From Prochlorococcus sp. AG-402-C09 (GTDB lineage: Bacteria; Cyanobacteriota; Cyanobacteriia; PCC-6307; Cyanobiaceae), in contig QCHN01000010.1 in NCBI GenBank assembly GCA_003279565.1, positions 1-51,659 of the forward strand: 51,659 nucleotides of DNA. The letters run 5' to 3'. A program made the position numbers and the translations under genes. The notes under the pieces were generated by a model. It saw only the letters and a program-made list of their open reading frames with translations, had not been told where the DNA came from and made no database searches. Below are positions 6,617 to 18,209 of the stretch, piece after piece. Position 1 is the stretch's first letter. Each line of letters starts with the position of its first letter.

Positions 6617-7009
6617 ATGGCTACAACCTCAAAGAAATCCGGTTCTAAGAAGTCAAAGCGCAACGTTCCTAATGGAGTTGTGCATATTCAAAGTACCTTC
6701 AATAACACCATTGTCTCAATTACTGACACTTCTGGTGAAGTCATTTCCTGGTCATCAGCTGGAGCTAGCGGGTTTAAAGGAGCTCGAAAAGGCACACCTT
6801 TTGCTGCTCAAACCGCTGCTGAACTTGCTGCCCGAAGGGCGCTAGAACAAGGGATGCGTCAAATAGAAGTTCTTGTAAGAGGACCAGGCTCAGGTCGTGA
6901 AACCGCAATAAGGGCGTTGCAAGTAGCTGGTCTTGAAATTACTTTGATCAGAGATGTAACTCCTCTCCCTCATAACGGTTGTAGGAGGCCTAAGCGCAGA
7001 CGCGTTTAA
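6617..7009 (+). CDS. rpsK: 30S ribosomal protein S11
   Basis: A 130-residue S11. The core [18 protein letters not shown] and the C-terminal [16 protein letters not shown] are diagnostic. S11 lines the platform at the E site, near the Shine-Dalgarno helix. It lies 65 bases after rpsM and 51 before rpoA. Confidence 0.98.
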
Positions 7010-11769: not shown

Positions 11770-12276
11770 CTAAGCTACCCATCCAATTACATATTTACTC
11801 CATTCTTTATGGCGACCAGAATGAATTTGCTTTGTGGTTTCAAAACTCATGTTATTTAAAGGTTTATAAGGTTTTGTTTTTAATGGCATCTTTGCCTCAT
11901 CTGGAGTTCTATTACCCTTCATTACGTTGCATTGAAGACACGCAGTAATCACATTCTCCCAATTGTCGGTTCCTCCTCTACTACGGGGTAAAACATGGTC
12001 AATTGAAAGTTTTTTGTTTTTTTGACCACAATATTGACAACAGTTATGATCTCTTTGAAATATATTTTTTCTAGAAAGAGGAATATCACGATATGGAACT
12101 CTAATAAATTGTCTTAATCTAATTACTGTAGGGGCTTTGACATCTTGCCTAATATTATGTGTCTCATCTTCTTCAAGACTTTCAGCCTTGCCTTTAAGCA
12201 TTAAAACAGTCGCACGACGCCATGAAGTGATGTTCAATGGCTCATAGGAAGCATTTAAAACAAGAACTTGACCCAT
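11770..12276 (-). CDS. HNH endonuclease family protein
   Basis: A 168-residue protein of the cyanobacterial HNH family beginning MGQVLVLNASYEPLNITSWR. The nuclease domain lies at residues 75-122: a zinc knuckle C80-x-x-C83 and C113-x-x-C116, the catalytic DH at 93-94 (SIDHVLPRSRGGTDNWENVI) and Asn residues at 105-117. Free-standing proteins of this kind are chromosomal in nearly all cyanobacteria and are probably not homing enzymes; their substrate is not known to me. It is convergent with prfA and divergent from alr. Confidence 0.88.
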   Translation of the reverse strand: MGQVLVLNASYEPLNITSWRRATVLMLKGKAESLEEDETHNIRQDVKAPTVIRLRQFIRVPYRDIPLSRKNIFQRDHNCCQYCGQKNKKLSIDHVLPRSRGGTDNWENVITACLQCNVMKGNRTPDEAKMPLKTKPYKPLNNMSFETTKQIHSGRHKEWSKYVIGWVA

Positions 12277-12358
12277 GCAAGCAAGCTATTTAAGCGGCAT
12301 GCTAGTGGTATTGGAGCCTTGCTGCAGTTTCCCTTATTACATTGATTACATGCCCAGT

Positions 12359-13558
12359 ATGTCAAAGATCAATAAAAGAGAAAGATCTTTCTCTTTTGGT
12401 GGGATAACAAAAAATGTAATGAACCCAGATCCTCGAAGTCGTGCATGGGTTGAGGTCGATTCGAAAGTTATTGAAAATAATGCAAGAGTTTTGAAAAACT
12501 TTATTGGTAAAGATTGTTTGTTAATGGCAGTAGTAAAAGCTGATGGATATGGACATGGTGCAGAGACTGTTGCAAAAGCTGCTTTAATTGGAGGTGCTGA
12601 TAGTCTCGGAGTTGCAACATTAGAAGAGGGGATTCAATTAAGAAATGCTGGCTTGAAGTGTCAGATTTTGATTCTTGGAAATCTAATAAATGCAGAAGAA
12701 CTTTATTCTTCCTTTTGCTGGAATCTTATTCCCACTATTAGTGGAATTCGTGAGGCGATAATTTGCAATAATATCGCAGAAAATAATCATAAAAAATTTA
12801 CTATTCACTTAAAAGTTGATACTGGAATGACAAGACTTGGTTGTGATTGCAATCAAGTTCAAGAATTAATTACTAAGATTGATTGTTTGGAAAATATATC
12901 CTTAGAAGGTGTATATAGTCATCTAGCAATTGCTGATAAAGATCTAGGAAATAGTTCTCAACTAAGTTTTACTCAGATTCAGTTAAATAGATTCGAGAAG
13001 GTTTTAAAGGATTTAGGCAAAAGAAAGAAGCTTCTATGTACACATCTAGCTAATTCAGCGGGGACACTTACAGATAGTCGTCTTCATTTTGATATGGTTC
13101 GAGTAGGACTTAGCTTATATGGTTACTTTCCAGTAAATGATTTTGAGTCTGATTTGAACCTTACCCCAGCCTTGAAAGTTAAGGCTCGAGTTACTTTGGT
13201 GAGAGATGTTGAAAAAGGGATTGGAGTTGGGTATGGACATATTTTTAAAACTCAAAGGAAAAGTAAGCTTGCTGTCGTAGCTATTGGTTATGCAGATGGT
13301 GTAAGCAGGACTCTTTCTGGAAAAATATCAGCCTCAATAGATGGAGTGTTGGTTCCTCAAGTAGGCGCAATTGCAATGGATCAAATGGTTTTTGACATAA
13401 CTGATAAATCAGATATTAAAACAGGACAGGTTTTAACCCTTCTGGGAACTGATGGTGAGGTTTGCATATCTCCTCAAAATTGGTGTGATTTGTCTGGATC
13501 AATTCCATGGGAAGTTCTCTGCAGTTTCAGAAATCGACTTCCTAGAGTTGTCACTTAA
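12359..13558 (+). CDS. alr: Alanine racemase
   Basis: PLP-dependent enzyme converting L-Ala to D-Ala for peptidoglycan. With the ATG at 12359 it has 399 residues; the PLP lysine is K60 in AVVKADGYGHG. Later blocks VGLSLYGY, IAIGYADGVSR-like (VVAIGYADGVSR) and GAIAMDQMVFDIT are intact. Homology begins at RAWVEVDSKVIE, so the ATG at 12419 (MNPDPRSRAW) is equally possible; starts at 12275 or 12350 would reach into the promoter of the HNH gene. Ends 2 bases before a good terminator. Confidence 0.94.
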   Translation: MSKINKRERSFSFGGITKNVMNPDPRSRAWVEVDSKVIENNARVLKNFIGKDCLLMAVVKADGYGHGAETVAKAALIGGADSLGVATLEEGIQLRNAGLKCQILILGNLINAEELYSSFCWNLIPTISGIREAIICNNIAENNHKKFTIHLKVDTGMTRLGCDCNQVQELITKIDCLENISLEGVYSHLAIADKDLGNSSQLSFTQIQLNRFEKVLKDLGKRKKLLCTHLANSAGTLTDSRLHFDMVRVGLSLYGYFPVNDFESDLNLTPALKVKARVTLVRDVEKGIGVGYGHIFKTQRKSKLAVVAIGYADGVSRTLSGKISASIDGVLVPQVGAIAMDQMVFDITDKSDIKTGQVLTLLGTDGEVCISPQNWCDLSGSIPWEVLCSFRNRLPRVVT

Positions 13559-13589: not shown

Positions 13590-13618
13590 GAGCTTTGACT
13601 TGATATGGTATTGGTAAT

Positions 13619-13707
13619 GGAGAGGTGGCTGAGTGGTTGAAAGCGGCTCCCTGCTAAGGAGTTACAGGAGGTAACTTCTGTCGAGGGTTCGAATCCCTCC
13701 CTCTCCG
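13619..13707 (+). tRNA. tRNA-Ser, anticodon GCU
   Basis: An 89-base class II tRNA. Acceptor GGAGAGG (13619-13625) pairs with CCTCTCC (13700-13706), discriminator G at 13707; the T arm is GAGGG-TTCGAAT-CCCTC; anticodon loop CTGCTAA gives GCU, closed by GCTCC/GGAGT; a long variable arm follows, as expected of tRNA-Ser. CCA is not encoded. This tRNA reads AGC/AGU. Its 3' end is the anchor of the islet that follows (see repeats at 15035 and 15234). Confidence 0.97.
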
Positions 13708-13711
13708 TTCT
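13697..13711 (+). repeat. attL-like repeat: tRNA-Ser 3' end
   Basis: The 15 bases CTCCCTCTCCGTTCT span the last 11 tRNA bases and 4 beyond. The same 15 bases recur exactly at 15035-15049. Downstream the two continue as TAATTTGG and AATTGG. This is the pattern left by site-specific integration into a tRNA 3' end. Confidence 0.7.
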
Positions 13712-13757
13712 TAATTTGGTTCAGGTTGCTTCATAAAAACTCAAACGCCAACAGTGA

Positions 13758-13997
13758 GTGGATATAACGAAATTGATTGATTTAGATGCACCCATACTTT
13801 CTCATATAGTTCATTTTTTTTTGGTGAAATTTTGGGTGAGAAACAATCTTGTGTTGGGTGATGATATAAATGCAATTTTTTGTAGAGGGTTTTATTCAAT
13901 GAATGGTGAAGAAGAAGCGTGGTGGGAATCGTTAGAGGAAGAAATTAAAGGAAAAGCTGGACAACCTTTTGAAGAAGTCCTATCAGTAGTTGATTAA
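13758..13997 (+). CDS. Small hypothetical protein, start uncertain
   Basis: A 79-residue reading frame with a GTG start. The N-terminal half is hydrophobic/aromatic (HIVHFFLVKFWVRNN), the C-terminal part acidic (NGEEEAWWESLEEEIKGKAG). I do not recognise a family. An ATG at 13899 would give only 32 residues (MNGEEEAWWESLEEE...), and that acidic part looks more protein-like than the upstream half. It lies in the tRNA-Ser islet and its stop overlaps the end of the convergent DUF1651-like gene by four bases. Confidence 0.4.
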   Translation: MDITKLIDLDAPILSHIVHFFLVKFWVRNNLVLGDDINAIFCRGFYSMNGEEEAWWESLEEEIKGKAGQPFEEVLSVVD

Positions 13998-14311
13998 GCA
14001 GCATCAACACAGGCATTGAACTGATGCTCTATTAATTCCCAATCATTAGAAAGAAGTTCATTCCAAGTTTCATGGGCAGATTCATAGTCCAATCTTCTTG
14101 TGTTCTTTAATTTGGTTGGTATACCTTCTTCGGTGCAAAACCAAAGTTGAGTGAAGACAGTAGGAGAAACCATTAGCGACTTCGGGTCTCTAATGAACAG
14201 CAGACAAAAATCTCTTGCTGGGGCAACTAACCATCCTGATGGTGTGGGTAATGCTTCTCTAATAGGTTCATTCATGTAACTGACATCTGATGGTGGATTC
14301 ATTTCCTGCAA
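13994..14311 (-). CDS. DUF1651-like protein
   Basis: A 105-residue protein. The segment WLVAPARDFCLLFIRDPKS, the following V...LWFCTEEGIP, and TRRLDYESAHETWNELLSND resemble the DUF1651 family, small proteins found in many variable copies in Prochlorococcus and marine Synechococcus; the family assignment is from memory of its pattern. Function unknown. An ATG 3 codons downstream (MNPPSD...) is an alternative start. It is the largest gene in the tRNA-Ser islet, which suits its known patchy distribution. No membrane segment. Confidence 0.65.
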   Translation of the reverse strand: MQEMNPPSDVSYMNEPIREALPTPSGWLVAPARDFCLLFIRDPKSLMVSPTVFTQLWFCTEEGIPTKLKNTRRLDYESAHETWNELLSNDWELIEHQFNACVDAA

Positions 14312-14356
14312 AGATTCTGATGAGATCAGCAGCCAGGAGGATCACGAAGTAGAGAC

Positions 14357-14383
14357 AAAAAAAGCACCGCTCACAGGCGCTTT
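14357..14383 (-). terminator. Intrinsic terminator on the minus strand
   Basis: Read on the minus strand, AAAGCGCC (14383-14376) pairs with GGTGCTTT (14368-14361) with one mismatch around GCTCACA's complement, followed by seven T. No protein gene ends here on this strand, so it points to a short untranslated transcript starting to its right. Confidence 0.55.
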
Positions 14384-14405
14384 GATTGCCTGCTCTTGTG
14401 ACGGG
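14357..14405 (-). ncRNA. Candidate small RNA in the tRNA-Ser islet
   Basis: A minus-strand TATTAT box (14417-14412) would give a start near 14405; about 48 bases later transcription would end at the terminator at 14357-14383. A recognisable -35 element is not clear (TTGCCT lies 15 bases upstream). The product would be about 50 bases, mostly a leader plus the terminator hairpin. It is not the known Yfr1 (its ACTCCTCACAC core is absent). Inference only. Confidence 0.35.
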
Positions 14406-14461
14406 GGTACGATAATACAAATGTACTACTTAAGGCAAGGGCTCCAGGATAATTGTTTTAC

Positions 14462-14500
14462 CTTAAAGAAGGAGGCGAGATTTTGGTCGCCCCCTTTAAG
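14462..14500. other. Long imperfect hairpin with bulges on one arm
   Basis: Left arm CTTAAAG, GG and GGCGA pairs with right arm TCGCC, CC, CTTTAAG: 14 base pairs in all, loop GATTTTGG (14479-14486). Three A (14469-14470 and 14473) are unpaired, all on the left arm. No T-run follows on either strand, so it is not a standard terminator. It lies in the gene-poor 260 bases between the DUF1651-like gene and the next gene (14312-14571), which otherwise holds the small RNA candidate above. Confidence 0.5.
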
Positions 14501-14571
14501 TTCAGCACTTGTGCAATGGTCCATCAGGCCAAAGTGAGTTAAAACAATAATGAGTAAGTAGTTAATTGAAA

Positions 14572-14799
14572 ATGGATAGTAAAGAATATGATTGGATTTT
14601 TGTTTATAAGATTCGTGATTCAGGTGATGTGATTTATAAAGTCACTATTCCATCAGAACGAAAAGAAGATGCAGTTGAATTATTTAAGAGAGAACATCCA
14701 GATGGATTGATCTGTAGTGGTATCAGGAGAGGTGATTTTAAATTGATACCATTCAAGGAACTATCTTCAAGTGATCCTTGGGAAGAGATTGCTTCGTAA
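14572..14799 (+). CDS. Small hypothetical protein
   Basis: A 75-residue protein from the ATG at 14572 (MDSKEYDWIFVYKIRD). A TTG two codons earlier opens the same frame but the ATG is the natural start. Composition is that of a globular protein (YKVTIPSERKEDAVELFKRE, an alternating strand-helix pattern). No family recognised. Its stop codon abuts the GTG start of the next small gene, so the two are probably co-translated. Part of the tRNA-Ser islet. Confidence 0.6.
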   Translation: MDSKEYDWIFVYKIRDSGDVIYKVTIPSERKEDAVELFKREHPDGLICSGIRRGDFKLIPFKELSSSDPWEEIAS

Positions 14800-14970
14800 G
14801 TGATATTCAAATCAAATCAAGGCAAATCCTTTACCAAAGAAGAAGCAATAGATCTAATGGTCTCATTGAGTGCAACTGACGCAAATTCAGCAAAGAAGTG
14901 GAGAGGTTTCTACAACTCTTTATCGCAGAAAGAGCTTCAGGATGAATGGGATGAGTATTGGAAACCTTAA
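14800..14970 (+). CDS. Small conserved-looking hypothetical protein
   Basis: A 56-residue protein with a GTG start directly after the TAA of the preceding gene (TAAGTG). It reads MIFKSNQGKSFTKEEAIDLM, then SATDANSAKKWRGFYNSLS, and ends QDEWDEYWKP. The pattern of a helix beginning FTKEEAIDLM followed by AKKWR..Y..L resembles short proteins I associate with Prochlorococcus accessory regions, but I cannot name a family. It is the last gene of the islet before the repeated tRNA end at 15035. Confidence 0.6.
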   Translation: MIFKSNQGKSFTKEEAIDLMVSLSATDANSAKKWRGFYNSLSQKELQDEWDEYWKP

Positions 14971-15034
14971 TTTTTTGCATTAAGAAAGGGACCTTACTGA
15001 TTGATCACAGTTCTCTTGGTGTTACTCAAAGTTT

Positions 15035-15049
15035 CTCCCTCTCCGTTCT
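15035..15049 (+). repeat. attR-like repeat: exact copy of tRNA-Ser 3' end
   Basis: CTCCCTCTCCGTTCT, identical to 13697-13711, 1338 bases downstream in direct orientation. The rest of a tRNA is not present upstream. It marks the far end of the islet. Confidence 0.7.
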
Positions 15050-15233
15050 AATTGGATGTCAATGAAGTTCATAGTCTAGTAAAACTGTCTTTTAGGAAAA
15101 AATAAATTGAAGAATTTTTTTCTATCAAGAGATTAAATAGAAATTTCCTTTATGAAATCCAATAGCAAATTTTGGTTTCTTTTAAATCTTGTGTGTCATA
15201 TCTATTCATTAATGGTCAGAGGGGTGCAGGCAT

Positions 15234-15255
15234 AATCTCTCCCTTTCCTTTCTTA
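15234..15255 (+). repeat. Second, decayed tRNA-Ser 3'-end copy
   Basis: Aligned to 13692-13713 (AATCCCTCCCTCTCCGTTCTTA), this stretch matches at 19 of 22 positions with no gap. It lies 199 bases beyond the exact copy. The 300-base region 14971-15354 holds these two repeats and no gene I can support; a 27-codon frame at 15152-15235 is too weak. Confidence 0.45.
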
Positions 15256-15354: not shown

Positions 15355-15651
15355 TTGAATAGGCAAAATTTTGGATTTAAAGTGCAAGCGAAAACAGCTC
15401 AAGCAGAGAAGAAAGCTGCGGCAGAGAAGAAAGTGCTAGCAGAGAAGAAAGCTGCGGCAGATACAAAATCTCGAGTCATTAAGAAAGTTAATTCTCGACC
15501 TCAAATTGATTCTCAAAAGAAACGAGACTCAAGGACTGAATTGTTGACGGTATCAGTCTCCTTAAATACAGGGAAGATCGTTGCAATAGCTTCTGTGGGG
15601 ATTTTGGCTTCGGCTATTCTTGTTTCTGCGATGGTATTTATTGCTGGGTAA
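15355..15651 (+). CDS. Small protein: basic Ala/Lys-Glu repeat plus C-terminal membrane segment
   Basis: A 98-residue frame with a TTG start (the ATG at 15351 runs into a stop; a GTG at 15382 is an alternative). Residues 12-42 are a charged repeat built of AEKK-AAAEKK-VLAEKK-AAADTK, probably helical. Residues 72-97 form one membrane helix, preceded by the motif LTVSVSLNTGKIVAI. The same motif occurs in the 44-residue protein at 16415-16549, so the two are paralogues. It probably anchors in the membrane with the basic part in the cytoplasm. Function unknown. Confidence 0.6.
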   Translation: MNRQNFGFKVQAKTAQAEKKAAAEKKVLAEKKAAADTKSRVIKKVNSRPQIDSQKKRDSRTELLTVSVSLNTGKIVAIASVGILASAILVSAMVFIAG

Positions 15652-15742: not shown

Positions 15743-16291
15743 GTGCTTAAAGAAAGAATCCAAGAGGTTTTTGAGTTCACTAAGAGTGAGTCCCCATATA
15801 GGAAAGCTAATAAAGGTTGGATTAATCAAGATATATTTTTAGATTTAAGCCCCTCCGCTAATACAGTTAAACAAAAAAATGAAGATGCTAAAGTAACATT
15901 ATTTTGGGCCCCAATAAATAGTTTATTATCTAATATTTTTATTATTATTAGTCTATGTTCAGTACTAGTATTCACCTCAGTATCTTTTGCAAAAGGTAGA
16001 TTTGACTTGAATTTATTTCATAACTCTGAGATTGGAGATATTGTCGAAGTTGAAGAAAATCACGCTCTCGAGATAAGCGAATCAGAGGATATAGATTCTA
16101 TGAATTCTATAATCCAACAAAATGTTGATACAAAAGACTTAGATAAGCCAAGTCAAGTCAATTCATCAGATAATGATCCAATGAAAGTAGATAAAAAAAT
16201 AGATAAACAAAAGAATACAAAAATAGAAAGTCAAAGCAATAAAGATATTAAAATTTTAAAAAGTAAGAAACCAAAATCAAATTTTATTTGA
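15743..16291 (+). CDS. Hypothetical single-pass membrane protein
   Basis: A 182-residue frame, start not ATG (GTG at 15743). About 57 residues precede one hydrophobic segment (LLSNIFIIISLCSVLVFTSV, about residues 59-78). The rest, about 100 residues, is highly charged and low in complexity (Asp, Glu, Lys, Ser, Asn), ending KSKKPKSNF. No family recognised. It lies between the two genes whose products share a membrane motif (15355 and 16415), and all three may belong to one membrane-protein group. Confidence 0.5.
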   Translation: MLKERIQEVFEFTKSESPYRKANKGWINQDIFLDLSPSANTVKQKNEDAKVTLFWAPINSLLSNIFIIISLCSVLVFTSVSFAKGRFDLNLFHNSEIGDIVEVEENHALEISESEDIDSMNSIIQQNVDTKDLDKPSQVNSSDNDPMKVDKKIDKQKNTKIESQSNKDIKILKSKKPKSNFI

Positions 16292-16414
16292 ACCATTTTT
16301 TGATACCAATAAACAATTCTTTGTTTTTTTAAAAATTGTTTTATCAGTGAAACTTTTTCTGTTTTTTGGCATAGTTAGATGCTTTAATCAAAGTGATTTT
16401 TATGAGTTTTTAAG

Positions 16415-16549
16415 GTGTCTGAAGCAAAGGGTAATCAACTCGCGACTATATCTGTTTATTTAAATACACCAATAATAGCCGTTCTTTTGGCTGTTGGATT
16501 TCTTTTGGGATCTATTTTATTTGCTGGAATCTTACTTATTGCTAAATAG
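16415..16549 (+). CDS. 44-residue membrane protein, paralogue of the 15355 gene
   Basis: Starts with GTG and ends at TAG 16547-16549. The protein begins MSEAKGNQLATISVYLNTPI and continues as one membrane helix ending LLIAK. The pattern L-x-T-hydrophobic-S-V-x-L-N-T-x-x-I matches the C-terminal part of the protein at 15355-15651 (LLTVSVSLNTGKI), which is strong evidence that it is a real gene. The basic repeat of the longer paralogue is missing. Its end overlaps the end of the convergent serine hydrolase gene by 8 bases. Confidence 0.65.
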   Translation: MSEAKGNQLATISVYLNTPIIAVLLAVGFLLGSILFAGILLIAK

Positions 16550-17435
16550 CTAATTTGTTTAATTCACTGCTAATCGCAGGAAGTAAAAATTGATCTTTGA
16601 CTAATTCTTTCCCAGTTGTAAAAACAACTGTAAGCATAGGATTCTTATTAGGAGCTTCCCACCATGCAACATCATGGCGAACTTCACTCATTAACCCTGC
16701 TTTGCTCCAAAGCTTCGTGGCCAAAGGAAGACCTGCTCCTAAAAAACCATCTACTTGATTCTCTAAATCTTGCTTGCGGCTAACTGGATCGAGTGAGCGT
16801 TGAAAAATTTTTATCAAATGCTCGCTTTCTAATCTTGGGAGCATTTCAAGAGTCATTAATGATTCAAAGATTCTGGCAGTTCCATCGGTTGTCATACTGT
16901 TTCGATTTTCATTTTTTTTTCCATAAAAATCTTTTTCCCTTCCAAAAGGTCCTTCATTCCAAGTTTTTTGACTGCAGTTCCAATTTTTTATTTCAGGCCA
17001 TCTAAGATCATTTAGCCATTGGTTAATTAATTGTCTTTGGATTTTCCATCCTTGATAGTTTGATTTATTAAGAGATGGACCACTTGTTGTACCTGTTAAA
17101 AGATCTAAGATATAACTTGTAGCGTCATTATTGGAGTATGCAATCATTTCATGCAATGCTCTCCTAAGTTCTTCTGAGTTAACAATTAAGTCTTGTTGAA
17201 GCCATACCTGAGTTGCCAATGCATAAACTATTTTTACTACACTGGCAGGATAAAAATTTCTGTTTGTATTCCACCCTGTTCCAAATCCACTAGATGACGT
17301 CGGACTTTCCTTGTCATAACGGACGCATGTTATTGCAATATTTTCTTGAAGGTTGGGAAGACCTTCTTTCTCAAGCCTATCTAGGAGACCTTTTAGGCAA
17401 AGCGCCATCTCAGGGTCTTGTCGGTAGAACGCCAT
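16542..17435 (-). CDS. Class A beta-lactamase-like serine hydrolase
   Basis: A 297-residue protein of the beta-lactamase/penicillin-recognising fold. Serine nucleophile S65 and K68 form the S-x-x-K motif (ASVVKI), S101-N-N103 corresponds to the SDN motif (AYSNNDATS), and KAG in LWSKAGLM occupies the place of KTG. No signal peptide is visible, and KAG instead of KTG argues against a true beta-lactamase. A role in cell-wall peptide metabolism is an inference. It is divergent from the NlpC/P60 gene, 21 bases apart. Confidence 0.8.
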   Translation of the reverse strand: MAFYRQDPEMALCLKGLLDRLEKEGLPNLQENIAITCVRYDKESPTSSSGFGTGWNTNRNFYPASVVKIVYALATQVWLQQDLIVNSEELRRALHEMIAYSNNDATSYILDLLTGTTSGPSLNKSNYQGWKIQRQLINQWLNDLRWPEIKNWNCSQKTWNEGPFGREKDFYGKKNENRNSMTTDGTARIFESLMTLEMLPRLESEHLIKIFQRSLDPVSRKQDLENQVDGFLGAGLPLATKLWSKAGLMSEVRHDVAWWEAPNKNPMLTVVFTTGKELVKDQFLLPAISSELNKLAI

Positions 17436-17456
17436 AGCGCTCGAAAAGAACTTAAT

Positions 17457-18209
17457 ATGACCTTAGAGGTTTTAATGACGAAATCTTCATTTGTTTTGGG
17501 AAGTTTGTGGAAACTGCGAATAAATATAGATGGATTAAAAAGTGAAAATAGTGATGAATTAGTTACTCAAGCAAGAATTGGTAGGAGTTTTCAAGTGATT
17601 GATAGTTTAAGATTTAATTTTAAAAATAAGGAAATTGTAGATAGAGTTAAAGTGCGTCTTTTGGAAGATGACTATATTTGTTGGTTTAAATTTTCTGAAT
17701 TAATTCATAACGCTTCAAAAATAGAATCCTGGGAGTCTGAATGTTTCACTGAAGAGAAAATTATTTCTAAGATACCTAGAATATTGTCTTGGACTAAGGC
17801 TGCGAAACAGATAAATAATGAATATTTATGGGGTGGAACAATAGGTCCAAATTTTGATTGTTCTGGTTTGGTTCAATCTGCTTTTGCAAGTTCAGGTATT
17901 TGGATACCAAGAGATGCTTATCAGCAGGAAGCATTCTGCAAAAATGTAGCATTGGATATTGGAACTTTAGGTGGAAAATTAATTCCTGGTGATTTACTTT
18001 TCTTTGGATCTTCTGAAAAATGTACACATGTGGGATTGCACATTGAGAATGGTTTTTATATTCACAGTTCTGGGGTAACTGATGGGCATAATGGAATAGA
18101 GATTGACGGTTTATTTCAACCGAACCTTGGAAAAATTGCTTCTTTTTATAGATCTAAATTTAGATCTGCTGGAAGAGTGATTTCTTGTTATCAGAGTGAA
18201 AAACTCTAA
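17457..18209 (+). CDS. NlpC/P60 family cysteine peptidase
   Basis: A 250-residue protein from the ATG at 17457; a TTG at 17418 would overlap the divergent hydrolase gene. The N-terminal 110 residues are a divergent SH3-like region. The NlpC/P60 domain has Cys135 in FDCSGLVQSAF, His191 in THVGLHIENG and His203 in IHSSG, a full catalytic set. Such enzymes cut gamma-D-Glu to diamino acid bonds in wall peptides. No obvious signal peptide. Followed by a glycosyltransferase gene after 33 bases. Confidence 0.88.
   Translation: MTLEVLMTKSSFVLGSLWKLRINIDGLKSENSDELVTQARIGRSFQVIDSLRFNFKNKEIVDRVKVRLLEDDYICWFKFSELIHNASKIESWESECFTEEKIISKIPRILSWTKAAKQINNEYLWGGTIGPNFDCSGLVQSAFASSGIWIPRDAYQQEAFCKNVALDIGTLGGKLIPGDLLFFGSSEKCTHVGLHIENGFYIHSSGVTDGHNGIEIDGLFQPNLGKIASFYRSKFRSAGRVISCYQSEKL

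Follow-up and report, generated by a model that had tools for sequence, protein, structure and literature searches.

Several described systems come close to the locus reported here, and their features are given as in the excerpts of the papers cited. A first group consists of the CIMEs and microCIMEs of S. salivarius, which have att sites without recombination or transfer genes and lie in tandem at one target, the most decayed copies being farthest from it; the gene-free microCIMEs measure 130-220 bp (PMC7563491). The S. salivarius CIMEs occupy the 3' ends of protein genes and trace back to conjugative or mobilizable elements, and CIMEs at the tRNA-Lys 3' end of S. agalactiae are cited within the same paper (PMC7563491). 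A second group is that of the additive flexible genomic islands, such as fGI-2 of Methylopumilus, with variable cassettes and recurring copies of the terminal 20 nt of its tRNA-Lys (PMC10872708), and fGI1 of Alteromonas, with tRNA-targeted variable cassettes (PMC4119200). Thirdly, tycheposons, as described second-hand in PMC10872708, are 4-200 kb long and possess a tyrosine recombinase; a review counts them among the proposed phage satellites (PMC11389934). Lastly, putative phage attachment-site pieces, repeated beside pseudo-tRNA genes, were reported for MIT9313 in a siphovirus paper of 2009 (PMC2784084).

The locus studied here lies in a window of 51,659 nucleotides from Prochlorococcus sp. 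AG-402-C09 (the whole stretch of DNA that was analysed), at the 3' end of a tRNA-Ser(GCU) gene. The inserted interval is very probably a short tandem array of non-autonomous integrative elements, CIME- or tycheposon-like, for which a recombinase would act in trans. As in CIMEs, the array segments have sites at both ends, here called core sites, no tyrosine recombinase was detected in them, and they accrete in tandem at the same target, with up to six core sites per array. In contrast to CIMEs and microCIMEs, no conjugative parent was seen, and the gene-free micro-elements measure 201-257 bp. The traits of an additive flexible genomic island, namely one location, variable cassettes, and a tRNA target with tRNA-end repeats, were all found, whereas paired arm-like words (short sequences common to both ends of a segment), families of cassette ends, and gene-free micro-elements are not described in the excerpts of the two island papers (PMC10872708, PMC4119200). 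A tRNA target in Prochlorococcus and variable cargo are shared with tycheposons, and the complete genome G005 contains a PF00589 element with a similar word layout at tRNA-Thr. However, the closed segments of the arrays are 0.2-7 kb long and no tyrosine recombinase of their own was detected, divergent types of which could be missed. The locus resembles an integron in its array of small cassettes of the same orientation beside a primary site, but no adjacent integron integrase was detected (no PF00589 match in the arrays) and the repeats are copies of the tRNA end. The arrays are a variant of the known tandem integrase-less elements at tRNA genes: additive islands, CIMEs, and microCIMEs have already been published, and what is added is the paired arm-like words together with gene-free minimal forms. 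This tRNA-Ser array was not described in the literature searched by title or abstract opening; the original tycheposon description, outside that scope, may mention it.

Parts of the insertion in the window

The features of the region are the following (window coordinates, strand, description, and basis in brackets):

12275..13558, + strand: conserved left neighbour, presumably alr, the alanine racemase gene (ORF; homologue in 36 of the 41 genomes sampled in the genus)
13618..13708, + strand: tRNA-Ser(GCU), integration target (ARAGORN; Rfam RF00005, 62.9 bits at 13619-13707)
13697..13711, + strand: core site 1, tRNA 3' end and left border of the insertion (repeat search)
13712..13862, + strand: cassette left end, start type s3, with word-like repeats inside (end typing, alignment)
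13994..14311, - strand: DUF1651 gene, cargo (Pfam DUF1651, E 4.6e-27; ORF cluster c4 in 8 genomes)
14462..14500, + strand: hairpin upstream of two small genes (folding z -2.9; comparison with relatives)
14566..14799, + strand: 77-aa cargo gene, horizontally spread (comparison with relatives)
14800..14970, + strand: 56-aa cargo gene, adjoining the 77-aa gene in relatives (comparison with relatives)
15006..15034, + strand: right-end remnant, type e1 (alignment with relatives)
15035..15049, + strand: core site 2, between the two elements (repeat search, end typing)
15050..15238, no strand: gene-free micro-element, 204 bp counting one core copy, types s18/e9, decayed-looking (end typing)
15239..15253, + strand: core site 3, two mismatches, right border of the insertion, with chromosome from 15254 (repeat search, empty-site alignment)

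The core site is the 15-mer CTCCCTCTCCGTTCT, composed of the final 11 tRNA bases (Rfam boundary) and TTCT. A sequence-only reading of this DNA had reported it at the tRNA 3' end and at 15035-15049, and these proved to be its only exact copies in the 34-contig, 1.63-Mb assembly, which is 88.7% complete. Recurrence at many unrelated places, named in that reading as contrary evidence, did not occur. Core site 3 is a third copy and, with up to two mismatches allowed, the window contains three copies on a single strand against 0.06 expected from shuffling, two of them being independent since the pattern was taken from the tRNA copy. At the Rfam gathering score, tRNA was the sole family matching in the window.

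The extent of the insertion follows from empty sites, which were found in five of the 35 tRNA-bearing loci (G030, G029, G026, G017, and G037; the contigs of the last two terminate within 0.4 kb). In these, the tRNA end is joined straight to flank type s4. The right flank of all five is alignable to the window from 15239 onwards, with 81-90% identity over 225-250 bp, indicating that the insertion covers 13697-15238 (1542 bp) and comprises two elements, a 1338-bp cassette and a 204-bp gene-free micro-element. The single element of 1.34 kb proposed earlier, with an empty-site junction at base 15050, is thus the inner of two stacked elements, and the real junction is the repeat at 15239. The more general proposal of a small integrase-less element or remnant at the tRNA 3' end is supported by the empty sites and by the other cargo of relatives.

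The left end of the window cassette can be aligned to relatives until about 13862, at an identity of about 80%. Word-like repeats start at 13818, 13830, and 13852, with two mismatches each, and span 13818-13863; with up to three mismatches, the interval contains five such matches against 1.3 expected. These repeats resemble arm-type sites. The ORF at 13758, once listed among the genes, is probably not a gene, as its matches in relatives are short, 38-78% identical, and often frame-split, and it overlies the left-end region. The description of the content as small orphan genes does not hold for the gene at 13994, which belongs to a Pfam family, and the genes at about 14566 and 14800 are conserved in relatives. 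The structure predicted for the 77-aa protein had a mean pLDDT of 58.4, too poor for a structure search. About 119 bp of the window cassette, at 13862-13981, are absent from the aligned relatives G006, G007, and G022.

The hairpin of the sequence-only reading does fold, and in five other genomes it stands at the start of a cassette type of its own, s6. Judged by eye, the pairing of its stem is kept in relatives through two-sided changes, with one mismatch in the window. At the right end, relatives possess an extra 130-140 bp around 15002-15006, which hold their right words and are absent from the window cassette. Because the right-end words are missing, the cassette would no longer be able to excise and is probably immobile by now. 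The outer micro-element and the third core site are degenerate, matching the expectation for an older insertion. The right-flank gene at 15355-15651 encodes a repeat protein of the AEKKAAAEKK type, 98 aa long in the window; the ORFs of relatives encode 139 to about 350 aa.

Arrays and end types among relatives

Among the named contigs carrying alr, 26 of 27 are from Prochlorococcus, and the tRNA gene follows alr in 33 of the 34 relatives retrieved, the remaining contig (L045) stopping short of the tRNA. The locus set contains 47 sequences; L045, without tRNA or site, was excluded from ORF counts, L114 was excluded from gene counts, and G009, with a partial alr match, lies outside the set. In the 11 loci showing both the tRNA and the conserved gene found at 15743 of the window, the two are 0.63 to 14.7 kb apart; in G005, this gene is not reached within 16.8 kb of the tRNA. 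The tRNA-Ser(GCU) site is hypervariable among relatives. Different cargo in related genomes, as anticipated in the sequence-only reading, was found across relatives, and the opposite case, the same genes without variation in all of them, did not occur. No excised circle and no pair of empty and filled sites inside one species was seen among the genomes compared. Over the 16 kb that follow the empty site in contig L077 of G026, none of the genes that other genomes have on the right (window 15743-18209) was detected, which marks another breakpoint close by.

The core sites are confined to one strand. In the longest arrays (G005 and G006), all copies have the same orientation, and the 15 cores with at most one mismatch in six single-contig genomes, of which G003 contributes none, all lie at the tRNA-Ser locus on one strand; some copies of draft genomes sit on contigs without tRNA and hence cannot be placed. 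A 27-column matrix trained on 80 sites gave 106 forward and no reverse matches of at least 14 bits in 307 kb, with a reverse maximum of 8.2; the 106 include the training sites, which match by construction, one site of L114 (another tRNA locus), and one weak site of L113. With three mismatches, one reverse-strand match to the core was found (L048).

The sequences flanking the cores were grouped into 23 start and 19 end types, end-type counts being approximate as start type s1 is a loose cluster. These types occur in many combinations, and cassette ends combine freely at the core sites. End typing was used instead of a count of BLAST alignment ends near the repeats, which was swamped by repetitive coding sequence (by eye). 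Of 6403 ends, 1.5% had a repeat no more than 10 bp away on both sides, versus none of the random positions, a weak enrichment, and ends with a repeat within 100 bp on one side were fewer than at random (8.0% versus 14.1%).

Micro-elements, paired words, and cargo

Micro-elements represent 11 of the 60 closed segments and contain no ATG-started ORF longer than 48 aa. Five of the 11 are made up of both ends, left and right, of some larger cassette (s5/e5 twice, s7/e7, s3/e1, and s2/e4). Another five, of type s1/e6, match the beginning of larger s1 segments lengthwise and not two ends, so that the larger segments look as if they start with a micro-element whose core has decayed. For the micro-element of the window, no larger cassette matched at both ends, nor otherwise. 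At the junction of two ends, tandem words of 11-12 bp occur in most cases.

In the cargo segments, words common to both ends (at least 12 of 14 bases, in search windows of 100-175 on the left and 125-35 on the right) were found in 17 of 49, compared with 34 of 391 mismatched pairs, five of 245 shuffles, and one of 220 interior windows; the other 32 gave no such match between their ends. In 15 of the 17 segments, the start of the word is 121-156 bp away from the left core on one side and precedes the right core by 81-96 bp on the other. Their sequences vary by family, for example TGTTGGGTGGAA, TGTTGTGAGGAG, and TGTTGTAGGAAA. Tyrosine-integrase attachment sites have a layout in which arm-type sites accompany the core, and by analogy the paired words may be arm-type binding sites of a tyrosine recombinase. 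The genus-wide array, the gene-free micro-elements, and the arm-like words had all escaped the sequence-only reading.

These ends and words bear on a first alternative, according to which a tycheposon with its own recombinase made each array and was later lost, the present elements being dead internal deletions. The window cassette without its right end would fit this, as would the mean number of core mismatches by rank from the tRNA (0.49, 0.73, 1.31, 1.0, and 1.2 for ranks 1, 2, 3, 4, and at least 5, the first copy being constrained also by tRNA function). However, the words at the two ends of five cargo segments agree in all 14 bases, and a 77-aa gene that is 90-100% identical where alr differs by 9-28% requires recent movement, making this alternative rather unlikely.

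The 77-aa gene occurs in 14 loci, 13 of which also have alr. Its DNA identity (90-100%) is unrelated to that of alr (72-91%; r -0.02). At four-fold sites, identity is 94.3% for the 77-aa gene versus 57.1% for alr; both this gene and the 56-aa gene (90.5%) are above alr in 78 of 78 pairs. The flank genes also exceed alr at these sites, namely the nlpC-like gene (83.1 versus 65.4; 45 of 45 pairs) and the bla-like gene (74.3 versus 65.3; 46 of 55 pairs), indicating that alr evolves fast or that the flanks recombine. The DUF1651 gene shows a smaller excess (65.3 versus 54.4; 23 of 28 pairs). Since the 77-aa and 56-aa genes surpass alr by a much wider margin than the flank genes do, the cassette that carries them has moved recently between species.

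The same figures bear on a second alternative, in which the interval is exchanged as a whole by homologous recombination between the core genes on either side and the repeats are old scars without current site-specific recombination. The synonymous identity of the flank genes, above alr in every pair for the nlpC-like gene, is in its favour, and some arrays may indeed have moved whole. Nevertheless, the ends are variously combined at the core sites, the identity of the 77-aa gene is independent of alr and well above the flank genes, and five of the 11 micro-elements keep both ends of a cassette, so that this alternative is improbable.

Concerning the cargo, family scans took 59 of 96 representative ORFs, some of them outside closed segments; most of those omitted belonged to L077 (empty site), encoded the AEKK-repeat protein, or were short or overlapped others. 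Among the families listed for these 59 proteins, the commonest Pfam matches were 2OG-Fe(II) oxygenases (four), FkbM (two) and CmcI-type (two) methyltransferases, and TPR (two). No conjugation or mobilization family was present among the 25 listed of 46 Pfam families, and the PADLOC defence families, 25 of which were listed, were in that list mainly generic methyltransferase and 2OG models. ORF cluster c1 contains 74 ORFs in total, 29 of them within closed segments. As a guess, the cargo of the arrays might alter the cell surface. A viral or phage origin of the cassettes was considered and rejected, as no match was found in viral contigs or phages with methods that included exact patterns and a 77-aa query, which a diverged relative could escape.

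Recombinase and likely mechanism of movement

No PF00589 match occurred inside any array of the genomes of the genus, and comparison of the recombinases from these genomes with the array sequence gave only one match of 41 aa (E 0.006). No recombinase specific to the tRNA-Ser(GCU) site was found in the genomes of the genus either. A recombinase beside a core site was also sought, and no draft contig with a core copy has a PF00589 match as well. According to the excerpt of PMC10187409, divergent picocyanobacterial integrases are recognised by language models alone, so that the absence of a tyrosine recombinase from the arrays is not absolute. The same excerpt mentions a small serine recombinase near such integrases (PMC10187409). 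One PHROG match to a phage integrase family turned out to be a serine recombinase of 185 aa (PF00239; L116:5952-6506, on a contig of G034); it is located outside the closed segments and precedes the first core site of its contig, at 6734.

An integron-like system run by a conserved chromosomal tyrosine recombinase of 387 aa is improbable: this enzyme is the sole PF00589 match in both the assembly of the window and the complete genome G002, but 78 of the 81 genomes sampled across the family contain a clear orthologue (E at most 1e-109), on account of which it was rejected as an array-specific enzyme, it scores 23 bits against a cut-off of 220 for the NCBIfam XerA/integron-integrase model, and the different word types suggest several recombinases.

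A candidate helper is present in G005, where the comparison covered the downstream regions of 36 of the 37 other tRNA genes. For five of these, the gene's own 3' end recurs downstream, never on the reverse strand, and seven elements are bounded by such copies. The element at tRNA-Thr(GGT) (L128) is 14.65 kb long and spans a PF00589 gene at 1862133. An exact 12-base word occurs at +172 and recurs as a tandem at -83/-93, a count made without null; compared with the tRNA-Ser arrays, the word spacing is equal on the right and longer on the left. Likewise without null, the elements at tRNA-Pro and tRNA-Ala have words matching at 11 of 12 bases, and the other four have none.

For the non-autonomous array, the mechanism of movement is likely to be the following. 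Firstly, a tyrosine recombinase would be supplied in trans by a related tycheposon-like element, a phage, or a chromosomal gene. Secondly, it would join a circular form of the cassette to the tRNA, rebuilding the tRNA end. Thirdly, each new insertion at the tRNA would push older elements outward, and lastly, loss of cargo between matching words could lead to gene-free micro-elements of 200-230 bp, with four end families. In the window, this would have left the cassette with the DUF1651 gene and the two small genes adjoining the tRNA, and the decayed micro-element behind it. A wider reading is offered tentatively, namely that the tRNA-Ser(GCU) gene may be a genus-wide integrase-free cassette platform, on which several recombinase specificities (the arm words) share one core target, micro-elements are empty carriers losing and gaining cargo between matching words, and cassettes cross species via recombinases acting in trans.

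With its fixed target, defined ends, and empty sites, the locus is a compact, countable system for gene gain and loss in streamlined ocean bacteria, and its gene-free minimal elements may show what movement requires in cis. The locus also raises a testable question, namely which recombinase moves elements that carry none. In other genera, same-strand core pairs less than 20 kb apart were found, among the matches listed, in G116 (2.6 kb), G068 (8.9 kb), and G064 (18 kb), with a pattern containing two tRNA bases that are absent from most internal cores.
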